Shown: piece by piece, positions 52,109 to 56,202 of the stretch
Numbering within the stretch: the stretch's first letter is position 1
How the letters are laid out: each line of letters opens with the position of its first letter
Assembly: GCA_009379825.1 (NCBI GenBank)
Contig: WHTA01000005.1
Span: 62,001 to 126,000 of the forward strand
Source of the DNA: Streptosporangiales bacterium
GTDB taxonomy: Bacteria; Actinomycetota; Actinomycetes; Streptosporangiales; WHST01
Direction: 5' to 3'
DNA: 64,000 nt
The notes under the pieces: model-generated
The model's database searches: none
The model's input: the letters and a program-made list of their open reading frames with translations, nothing else
What the model was told of the DNA's origin: nothing
Made by a program: the position numbers and the translations under genes

Positions 52109-53904
52109 TCAGCCCCGCGGGCGCAGCTCGAGCAGGTGGCGGCCGGCGCGGAGCTCGGTGACGCCGTGCAGGTGCAGCCCGGCACGCTCGGCGAGGGCGG
52201 CGTACTCGTCCAGGTCCCTGCCGCCACCGCCGAACCTCGCGTACATCTGCAGGTCGTACGCGAGGTCGTGGTCGTGGTCGTGCTCGCTCGGCAGCCGCTC
52301 AACGAGCAGGATGCGGCGGTCACCAGCCGCCTCCGCAACCCGGGTGAGGATGGCGACCGCCTCGGCGTCCGGCCAGTCGTGCAACACCTGGGCGAGTACG
52401 TAGACGTCGCCGTCGGGCGGCAGCGGCTCGAAGAAGCTCTGCGGCACCACCCGTACCCGGTCGGCGAGCCCGCGCTCGCCGAGCGAGTGGCGCGCGCGTT
52501 CCGCGGTCGTGGGCAGCTCGACGAGCGTTCCGCGGGTGCCCGGGTGCGCGTCGAGCACGACTGCGAGGAACGTCCCTGTGCCGCCGCCGACGTCCACCAT
52601 GTGCTCCTCGCCGGTGAGCGCGAACGCCTCGACAGAACGCGCCGACCACAGCGCGGACTCCTGCCCCTGTGCGTGGTCGAACGTGCTGCCGAGCTTGTCG
52701 TCGCTGCCGAGCCGGGCCCAGAACGCCCGTCCGGTCGCGTGCTCGTAGCCGGACCCGCCGGTGCGCAGCGAGTGCAGCAAGCCAGGCCAGCAGTCGTCGA
52801 TGCGCGCGTAACCACTGCGGTGGTCGTAGCGTTCGTGCACGTGGTCCTCGACGAGCACGGACCCGAGCGCCGTGAGCCCGACGGTGTCGTCCGCGCCGAG
52901 GGTGAACAGCTTCTCGTGGGCGAGCACGCGGAGCAGCTTGCGGATGCCGCGGGCCTGGGTGCCCGTTGCCGCGGCGAGCGCGGTGACCGTGGTGTGCCCG
53001 TCGATCACGTGCTCCGCGAGGTCGAGGGTGAGCGCCGCGCGCGCCGCGTAAGGAACGGCGAGGTCGACGGCGTCCTGCAGGCGGTGCAGCTCCTCGGCCG
53101 CCTGCAGCTGGGAGTGCCCGGCCCGCCAGTAACCGGCGACGTCGACGCAGCGGCGTGCGACCTGCTGGTCGCGCTTGAACCAGCGCCTGACGGGACGCAG
53201 CATGCCCGCTTCGCCTGCTGCCAGGCGTAGACCTGGCCGTCCCGCCACGGCGCGGACCGCACCGCGTCCATCAGCGCGTCGGGGCCCGCGGTGTCCCTGT
53301 GCACCCAGGTGAGGTGCAGGTCGGCGCGGTGGTCGAGGGTCTGCTCCTCGCTCGCGGAAGCCACCGACACGACGGCGGTCACCGGCGTGCCCGAGGGCAG
53401 CTCCTCGATGCGGCGGGCGATGGCCGGCAGCGCCGTCTCGTCGCCGACCAGGAAGTACCAGTCGATCCCTGGCGGCAACACCGTCGTGCCGCGCGGACCG
53501 GCGACGAGCGCGCGGTCGCCGGGCTTCACTCGGTCCGCCCACTCGGCCGCGAGACCGCCGACGTGCCGGACGAAGTCGAGCTCCAACCGACGTGCCGTGG
53601 CGTCGTGCCGCCGCGGGGTGTAGTCGCGGGCCCGTCCGATCGTCTCCGGCAGCCAGTCGAGGAAGCCGTCGTTCTGGGCCGGCGCGACGACGGTGGGGGC
53701 GTCCGGGCCGAGCACGACGACCTTGACGTGGTCGTCGGCGTTCTCCGTGACGAACGGCCCGATCTGGTAGCCGTTGTTGCGGAAGGCGCCGAGCTGGTCG
53801 CCGGTCAGCACCACGCGCCGCATCAGCGGCGTCACGTCGTACGCGTCGAGCACCTCCAGGTCGCGGATGACGATCGGGTACGGCTTGTGCTCGCGGCCAC
53901 TCAC
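52109..53904 (-). CDS. Siderophore-interacting protein fused to an O-methyltransferase, frameshifted
   Basis: A predicted 598-residue fusion. Residues about 1-260 are a siderophore-interacting FAD-binding reductase (VTPLMRRVVLTGDQL, DYTPRRHDATARRLELDFVRH, WADRVKPGDRALVAGPRG, WYFLVGDETALPAIARRIEELP, APWRDGQVYAW). After a missing base near 53219 the frame continues AGEAGMLRPVRRWFKRDQQ and VDVAGYWRAGHSQ, the normal SIP end, without a stop. It runs on into a dimerisation domain and a catalytic O-methyltransferase domain (MVDVGGGTGTFLAVVLDAHPGTRGTLVELPTTAE, LAQVLHDWPDAEAVAILTRV). GTG start after GAGGAGG. A palindromic iron box lies 15 bp upstream. Function: ferric-siderophore reduction coupled to a methylation step, by inference. 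Confidence 0.8.
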
Positions 53905-53918
53905 TACGGCCTCCTCTC

Positions 53919-53960
53919 GACTCAGAACCTAGTTAGGCTAGCCTAACTAGGTTCTGAGTC
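53919..53960 (-). promoter_or_regulatory. Perfect 42-bp palindrome containing an iron (DtxR/DmdR) box
   Basis: The 21-bp left arm beginning GACTCAGAACC (53919-53939) is perfectly repeated in reverse complement at 53940-53960. The core TTAGGCTAGCCTAA (53933-53946) matches the iron box TTAGGTTAGGCTAACCTAA at its palindromic centre. It sits just upstream of the SIP fusion gene and spans the AraC gene's stop codon. Role: iron-dependent repression; the outer arms may also be an AraC terminator, although no T-run follows. Confidence 0.8.
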
Positions 53961-54756
53961 GGTAGCGGCCGGGTGGCACACCGATCGCGCGGGTGAACTG
54001 GCGGGTGAGGTGTGCCTGGTCGTAGAACCCGGTCCTGGCCGCGACATCGGCGATCGGGTGACCCGCGTCGAGCAGGGTCTTTGCGCGACGGATCCGGATG
54101 TGGGTCTGGTACGCGTGCGGTGTCATGCCGACGGCACTACGGAACGCCCGACAGAAGTGGTACGCGCTTAAGCCGACCTGGCGAGCCACCGCTTGCAGGG
54201 TGACGGAGTCTGCGGCGTGTTCGTCGAGGTACTCCCTGCCGGCGCGGATCGCGGCCGGCTCGCGGCCGGGTTCCCGCAGCTCGGGTCCTGGCCTCGCATA
54301 CCGGCTGGTGAGCAGCGCGAGGGTCGCGGTCAGCGTCTGCTCGCGCTGCAGCCTGCTCGACCGCGGTGACTCCGCGAGCCGGTGGAAGCGACGCAGTCCC
54401 CGGACGATCTCCGGGTCGCGTACGAGGTCGTCGCCGAAGTGCGGCAGCTGCCCGGCCGCGAAGCCCCGCAGCAGGGCAGGGTCGAGGTAGACGGCACGGT
54501 AGCTCCAGGACTGTTCTCCAGGCGGCCCGCCGGCGTGTGCTTCCTCCGGGTTGAGCACGAGCACGTCACCGGGTGCGAGCACGTGCCTGTCGCCGCGGTA
54601 CGTGGGCGTAGCCACGCCGCGTTCGGTGAGCGCGACGAAGAACTCCTCGTGCGCGTGCGGGCGGAAGGCGAACTCCGTGATGGTGGCACGCAGGAGCTCG
54701 ACCCCGCCAAGATCGTCGGCACGCCAGATCCGCGTGACGCCGGCCGCTGTCGACAC
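53947..54756 (-). CDS. AraC-family transcriptional regulator
   Basis: A 269-residue regulator with an N-terminal cupin-type sensing domain (ITEFAFRPHAHEEFFVALTERGV, DVLVLNPEEAHAG) and two C-terminal helix-turn-helix units (ADSVTLQAVARQVGLSAYHFCRAFRSAVGMTPHAYQTHIRI, IADVAARTGFYDQAHLTRQFTRAIGVPPGRYR). It lies upstream of the SIP fusion on the minus strand and 26 bp from the divergent PLP decarboxylase gene. Probable targets are the decarboxylase and the fusion gene. Confidence 0.9.
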   Translation of the reverse strand: MSTAAGVTRIWRADDLGGVELLRATITEFAFRPHAHEEFFVALTERGVATPTYRGDRHVLAPGDVLVLNPEEAHAGGPPGEQSWSYRAVYLDPALLRGFAAGQLPHFGDDLVRDPEIVRGLRRFHRLAESPRSSRLQREQTLTATLALLTSRYARPGPELREPGREPAAIRAGREYLDEHAADSVTLQAVARQVGLSAYHFCRAFRSAVGMTPHAYQTHIRIRRAKTLLDAGHPIADVAARTGFYDQAHLTRQFTRAIGVPPGRYRLRT

Positions 54757-54782: not shown

Positions 54783-56202
54783 GTGCAAGACCACGAATTC
54801 CGCGTCGCCGTAGCGTCGACGACCGTGGACGAGCTGCTCACCCGCACCAAGGAGCTGGCGACCGGTTGGCTCGACTCGCTGGCGGACCGGCCGGTCGGCG
54901 AGACGGCGAGCGTGGACGCGCTGCGGACGAGACTCGGCGGTCCGCTGCAGCGCGAGCCCGTCGACCCGCTGCGGGTGGTGGAGGAGCTGGCCGACGGCGC
55001 AGAACCGGGTCTGCTCGCCATCCCGTCCGGACGCTATTTCGGGTTCGTCATCGGCGGCACGCTGCCGGCCGCCGTCGCCGCCGACTGGCTGACCACGGTG
55101 TGGGACCAGTGCCCCGGCCTGTACGCCTGCGGTCCCGCAGCCAGCGTGGCGGAAGAGGTCGCGGGCGGATGGCTGCGTGACCTGCTCGGCCTGCCCGGGC
55201 ATGCCTCGTTCGCACTCGTCACCGGCACCCAGGAAGCCCACCTGACCTGTCTGGCCGCGGCCCGGCACCACCTGTTGCGCGCAGCGGGCTGGGACGTCGA
55301 GGAGCAGGGACTGCACGGGGCGCCACCGGTACGCGTGCTGATGGGAGCCCGACGGCACGCCAGCATCGACCGCGCCCTGCGCTGGCTGGGCATCGGGCGG
55401 GCGGCGTGGCGGAGCGTCCCTGTCGACGGCGCGCGGATGGACGTCGCCGGCCTCCGTCGCGAGCTCGCCGCCGCCGACACCGCGACGATCGTCTGCGCCC
55501 AGGCCGGCGAGGTCAACACCGGCGCCGTCGACGATCTGGACGCCGTCGCGGACGCGGCGCGCGACGCCGGGGCGTGGGCTGCACGTCGACGGAGCCTTCG
55601 GCCTGTGGGCGGTCGCCAGCCCCGCCCACCGGCACCTCGTCGCCGGAGCGGACCGGGCCGACTCCTGGTCGGTGGACACGCACAAGTGGCTCAACGTCCC
55701 TTACGACTCCGGTCTCGCCTACTGCGCGCACCCGGACGCGCACCGCGCCGCGATGAGCGTCACGGCGGACTACCTCGTCCTGGGTGGACCAGACCGACCG
55801 CGCGATCCCCTCGACTGGACGCCCGCGTTCTCCCGCCGTGCCCGCGGATTCGCGCTCTACGCCGCACTCCGGTCGCTCGGCCGCGACGGCGTGGCGGAGC
55901 TGGTGGCACGCAGCTGTGCCCACGCCCGCGCCTTCGCCGACGGCCTCACAGCGATCCCCGGCTGCCAGCTGCTCGACGACGTCGTGCTCAACCAGGTGCT
56001 GTTCCGGTTCGGCGACGACGACACCACCGGGCGCATCCTGCGGCAGGTCGTCGACAGCGGCGAGGCATGGCTGAGCCCGACGACCTTCGAGGGGCGCGCG
56101 GCGATCCGGCTGTCGGTGTCCAGCTGGCGCACCACGGACGACGACGTCATGCGCACCCTGCGCGCCTTCCGTACCGCCGCCAGTGGTGGCGGCTCGCGCT
56201 AA
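54783..56202 (+). CDS. PLP-dependent decarboxylase (AADC/Group II type), frameshifted
   Basis: A protein of about 472 residues of the group II pyridoxal-phosphate decarboxylases. YFGFVIGGTLPAAVAADWL, TGTQEAHLTCLAAARH, VCAQAGEVNTGAVDDL and, after removing one G of a GGG run at 55576-55578, AWLHVDGAFGLWAV, SVDTHKWLNVPYDSG (Schiff-base Lys, about residue 301) and NQVLFRFGDDD. The GTG start at 54783 has no strong ribosome site. It is divergent from the AraC gene. Substrate likely an aromatic or aliphatic amino acid; a siderophore- or amine-related role would fit its neighbour. The single-base lesion may be an error. Confidence 0.85.

Follow-up and report, generated by a model that had tools for sequence, protein, structure and literature searches.

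A stretch of 64,000 nucleotides from a Streptosporangiales bacterium (contig WHTA01000005.1; hereafter the window) contains a gene in which a siderophore-interacting protein (SIP) appears to run into an O-methyltransferase, interrupted by a shift of reading frame. This raises the questions of whether the two parts truly belong to a single protein, whether the interruption is a feature of the organism or of the deposited sequence, and what a protein of this architecture would do. The features of the locus on which our argument draws are as follows.

52109-53904, minus strand: SIP-O-methyltransferase fusion gene, with a GTG start at 53904, a stop at 52109 and one single-base frameshift inside
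53485-53853, minus strand: SIP FAD-binding domain PF08021 (FAD_binding_9; Pfam, residues 18-140 of P0001, frame 1)
53117-53463, minus strand: C-terminal SIP domain on the NAD(P)H side, PF04954, which the frameshift divides and which ends VDVAGYWRAG
53221-53222, minus strand: one-base deficit, TGG in the window against TGGG in intact orthologues
52847-53062, minus strand: O-methyltransferase dimerisation domain PF08100 (Pfam, residues 57-128 of P0002, frame 2)
52175-52783, minus strand: O-methyltransferase catalytic domain PF00891 (Methyltransf_2; Pfam), nearest solved structure MmcR (3gwz)
52574-52594, minus strand: SAM-binding fingerprint DVGGGTG (DXGXGXG as defined in PMC8895007), placed by alignment
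52373-52381, minus strand: catalytic HDW motif, its His the counterpart of the family's essential His (PigF His247-Asp248, PMC8895007)
53918-53961, no strand: perfect palindrome of 44 bp, its core iron-box-like (DtxR/IdeR type), some 14 bp ahead of the GTG start
53947-54756, minus strand: AraC-family gene (Pfam), directly upstream of the fusion on the same strand, a possible regulator

Pfam matches cover both halves of the gene, distributed over two frames. Frame 1 (53904-53224, minus strand) carries PF08021 and the greater part of PF04954 (profile positions 2-83, at residues 148-227 of P0001), while frame 2 (53230-52109, minus strand) opens with the last 35 positions of PF04954 (profile 85-119, at residues 4-38 of P0002) and continues into a class-I O-methyltransferase, with PF08100 (27.6 bits; cut-off 25.6) and PF00891 (116 bits; cut-off 22.3). 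The initial annotation had read the SIP part as complete to its usual end, VDVAGYWRAG, and as continuing without a stop into a methyltransferase. Both readings are borne out, the first by the PF08021 and PF04954 matches and the second by frame 2, which stays open from the SIP C-terminus through to the stop at 52109. The best PDB match of the SIP half is 4yhb (E 4e-38), and the methyltransferase half aligns with MmcR over 301 residues (E 3e-55).

Comparison with known systems places each half within a familiar family. With SIPs (PF08021/PF04954; FscN of Thermobifida fusca, YqjH, ViuB; PDB 4yhb, 2gpj, 8c4l, 6geh) the fusion shares the two domains, running through to GYWRxG, as well as a siderophore-uptake gene context and iron-box-like sites; however, solved SIPs stand alone at about 250-275 aa (IrtA excepted), whereas the fusion has about 330 extra C-terminal residues, which constitute the O-methyltransferase. 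IrtA, the mycobactin importer (PDB 7wiu), likewise couples a SIP domain to another domain and serves iron-siderophore uptake, yet its partner is an ABC transporter half, and the match between the SIP half of the fusion and IrtA is weak (E 1e-7). The dimerisation domain, SAM fingerprint and HDW motif of the window fusion are shared with Methyltransf_2-type enzymes such as MmcR, DnrK and CalO6, but these stand alone, whereas here the O-methyltransferase sits behind a reductase. The enzymes that this half resembles add methyl groups to phenolic hydroxyls.

The SIP-O-methyltransferase fusion is real. A single ORF of 596-599 aa, 67-72% identical and aligned end to end, is present in three genomes of the genus Actinomadura: A. 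flavalba DSM 45200 (L053, the same sequence as G057), A. atramentaria DSM 43919 (L054) and G295 (L055), with intact fusions found in 3 of 65 genomes within the genus of G057. Given that these orthologues are single ORFs aligned over their whole length, the architecture is neither a chance arrangement nor an artefact of the frameshift, and the homologues are not confined to pairs of separate genes, which the initial annotation had named as a refutation. The two-domain SIP is complete in the intact orthologues and is split by the frameshift in the window copy (Pfam). Identity within the window clade is 72-80% for the SIP half but 57-61% for the methyltransferase half, which therefore evolves faster. 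An AlphaFold model of the A. flavalba protein, built without an alignment, was poor (mean pLDDT 40).

The orthologues also locate the interruption. Compared with all three, one G is missing from a TGGG run, the window reading TGGCAGCAGGC and the orthologues TGGGCGGCGGGC. A single-base shift in the SIP part had been recognised initially, but was placed at 53219, 2-3 bases from the actual deficit. Taken as deposited, the window sequence yields a frame 1 that ends after 299 aa, giving a truncated SIP and no fused protein. We consider the frameshift to be probably a sequencing error rather than the mark of a dead gene. A lesser but still serious possibility, and a matter separate from the function of the intact enzyme, is that the window gene has truly become a pseudogene and is being lost: the adjacent PLP decarboxylase gene carries a second one-base frameshift, and a congener (G001) keeps merely a methyltransferase relic of the fusion. 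However, each shift alters a single base within a G run, as is typical of sequence error, the window gene is without further damage over 1.8 kb, and rpoC and most nearby genes are intact. Moreover, third codon positions are still the most variable, and account for the largest difference between the window and its orthologues in both halves of the fusion, indicating that the gene was under selection until recently. There is no case for programmed frameshifting, as the orthologues have the full G run and no shift.

A role in ferric-siderophore handling, as initially suggested, is plausible and is backed by gene neighbourhoods as well as by iron-box matches. In A. flavalba and A. atramentaria, a Peripla_BP_2 gene (ferric-siderophore binding protein) lies directly upstream of the fusion, which starts 24 bp past the end of that gene or overlaps it, and FecCD genes are divergent; no NRPS turned up within some 9 kb of either fusion. 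The neighbours of more distant fusions include genes for binding proteins, FecCD, ABC_membrane (IrtAB-like) transporters, NRPS and carrier protein. Neither beside the window copy nor beside the G295 copy was a transporter or siderophore gene seen. In G001, which belongs to the same genus as the window, there is no intact fusion, and a 125-aa relic of the methyltransferase C-terminus (L052:9261-9638, minus strand; 62% identical over 86 residues) adjoins a set of ATPase, binding-protein and stand-alone SIP genes. This relic ties the fusion to iron uptake in the window genus and shows that the fusion can be lost.

Near the window copy, Pfam identifies a PLP-dependent decarboxylase gene (54783-56202, plus strand) and another methyltransferase gene. 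The one-base change in the decarboxylase gene lies in a G run near 55577, and its PF00282 match extends over two frames. AraC-type genes were also observed in distant-fusion loci (L061:11139-12746, L086:11431-12159, L060:14912-15640), that of L061 encoding a regulator of 535 aa with two HTH_18 stretches.

Iron boxes were scored as matches to the 19-position DtxR consensus TTAGGTTAGSCTAACCTAA (PMC1382209). Almost all fusion loci contain a site with 14-18 of 19 matches, whereas 20 kb of randomised sequence gave no more than 11-13, with 17-18 matches at the A. flavalba and A. atramentaria loci; the exceptions are L055 (12) and L078 (13), at which no match exceeds the randomised level. In the window a score of 14 is attained twice, within the 44-bp palindrome, and a strict search (at most three mismatches) found no iron box in the window, such that its site is iron-box-like only. 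The palindrome itself, situated between the AraC stop and the SIP start and overlapping the AraC stop codon, has no loop and is the longest in the window, with a half-length of 22 compared to 10-14 in shuffles.

Searches at the level of order, class and genus ruled out an architecture unique to the window genome. In the order sample, about 15 of 347 genomes (about 4%) encode a SIP-methyltransferase protein, 16 genomes giving a match, of which that in G237 spans the methyltransferase alone. The class sample added nine further genomes besides the window genome, from families f6, f19, f20 and f21, and the phylum sample one more (G383), and in most of the distant members tested Pfam confirmed a SIP domain together with the dimerisation and/or Methyltransf_2 domain. 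Several actinomycete families encode such full-length proteins, in siderophore-uptake or NRPS loci. We found no description of a SIP-methyltransferase fusion in the open-access literature searched, in agreement with the initial impression that the architecture had not been described, although this does not prove novelty; the architecture is not rare. Its component families are known, and the combination is already in public genomes, unremarked as far as we found. A paper on kasichelin was rejected as a match, since the methyltransferase there is separate and UbiG-type.

The fusions differ sharply in the state of their methyltransferase. In our alignment, the SAM motif (VDVGGGTG) and HDW are kept in all four members of the window clade and gone in all 22 distant fusions examined, which read, for example, VIHSGGAG with AFKTLPD, or AVVGDAAP with ALEGR, at the corresponding sites. 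In PigF, a member of the same enzyme family, the motif His is required and the DXGXGXG fingerprint binds the cofactor (PMC8895007). Given this pattern of motif retention and loss, together with the PigF data, members of the window clade are expected to be capable of methylation and the distant fusions to be incapable of it. That all fusions are active methyltransferases is ruled out by the same losses, and in the distant relatives the second domain is probably an inactive pseudo-methyltransferase. Widespread SIPs of about 600 aa with a methyltransferase-like C-terminus, but without SAM or catalytic motifs, were observed at L038-L048, L069-L077, L089 and L091, and proteins of this kind probably carry no annotation beyond SIP. 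The stand-alone protein RdmB (aclacinomycin 10-hydroxylase, PDB 1qzz) has a methyltransferase fold similar to that of the fusion and took on a non-methylating role. By analogy, the distant fusions may also have a non-methylating role, although they lack the SAM motif, unlike RdmB, which still binds SAM. If the degenerate relatives are functional, their second domain must mainly dimerise the protein or hold the siderophore.

Phylogenetic analysis places the methyltransferase halves of all fusions in one group apart from stand-alone enzymes (support 98/96). The SIP tree puts the window clade among stand-alone SIPs, yet a constraint uniting all fusions in one clade is not rejected (p-AU 0.256). 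The simplest reading of these trees would be one fusion event followed by loss of the methyltransferase motifs in most lineages, with two independent fusions also possible; the long branches of the degenerate domains weaken the inference of a single origin.

Reduction of ferric siderophores by SIPs takes place in the cytoplasm and draws on flavin and NAD(P)H (PMC11965169). The best overall explanation of the intact protein, which we favour tentatively and at slightly less than an even chance, is that it reduces ferric siderophores under iron control and that its second domain O-methylates a phenolate or catechol, probably on the siderophore. Under this explanation, iron limitation would cause a DtxR/IdeR-type repressor to leave the operator upstream of the fusion gene, and a ferric siderophore would be imported via a FecBCD-type ABC transporter. 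In the cytosol, the N-terminal SIP domain, with FAD and NAD(P)H, would reduce Fe(III) to Fe(II) and free the iron, after which the C-terminal SAM-dependent O-methyltransferase would transfer a methyl group to the oxygen of a phenolate or catechol, the freed siderophore being the likeliest acceptor, and so block the rebinding of iron or tag the siderophore for disposal or recycling. The reductase and O-methyltransferase activities and the dimerisation of the fusion are inferred from the respective families, whereas we can only guess that the siderophore accepts the methyl group, as the initial annotation had suggested, and what its methylation would be for. A general role in methylation is opposed by the degenerate state of this half in every one of the distant relatives examined, which means that fused proteins as a whole cannot depend on methylation. 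Further points against the favoured explanation are that neither the window copy nor the G295 copy adjoins transporter or siderophore genes, that the methyltransferase half diverges faster than the SIP half, and that the window gene carries a frameshift. A more far-reaching version, in which the enzyme removes iron and then caps the siderophore ligand by O-methylation, making the carrier single-use or marking it for recycling, and in which the same fusion gave rise to a broader actinomycete family whose methyltransferase is a dead part of the reductase that binds the siderophore or dimerises the protein, strikes us as rather doubtful.

The strongest competing account of function, unlikely in our judgement yet credible, holds that the methyltransferase part is mainly structural, dimerising the protein and/or binding an aromatic siderophore near the flavin, with catalysis dispensable. 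It would suit the distant fusions well, as these retain a fold-level match, and in most cases the dimerisation domain, despite the loss of both motifs, and the clustering of all fusion methyltransferase halves is in keeping with it. However, the window clade retains all of its motifs even though identity in this half has fallen to 57-61%, which would be difficult to account for if SAM were not used. Alternatively, the methyltransferase may serve biosynthesis or an unrelated phenolic metabolite, the fusion merely co-regulating it with iron uptake. The nearest solved relatives are indeed secondary-metabolite O-methyltransferases (MmcR, DnrK, CalO6), some distant fusions adjoin NRPS and carrier-protein genes, and the window copy has the decarboxylase and second methyltransferase genes close by. 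The A. flavalba and A. atramentaria orthologues, whose methyltransferase is intact, nevertheless lie in transport gene sets away from any NRPS over the same 9 kb or so, and we regard this alternative as improbable. Finally, two separate genes fused only in appearance, through an assembly or frame artefact, can be dismissed, for although the window frame is broken within the SIP part, the break falls inside that domain and not between the domains, and the three intact single ORFs come from independent genomes.

Only in a few cases is it known what becomes of a siderophore once its iron has been released inside the cell. A reductase covalently linked to a working methyltransferase, as in the siderophore-methylating explanation favoured here, would if true provide a direct and testable route by which the ligand is disabled or recycled. 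Furthermore, that one clade keeps an intact methyltransferase while a widespread family carries a dead one offers a natural experiment in the conversion of an enzyme domain into a scaffold or binding module.
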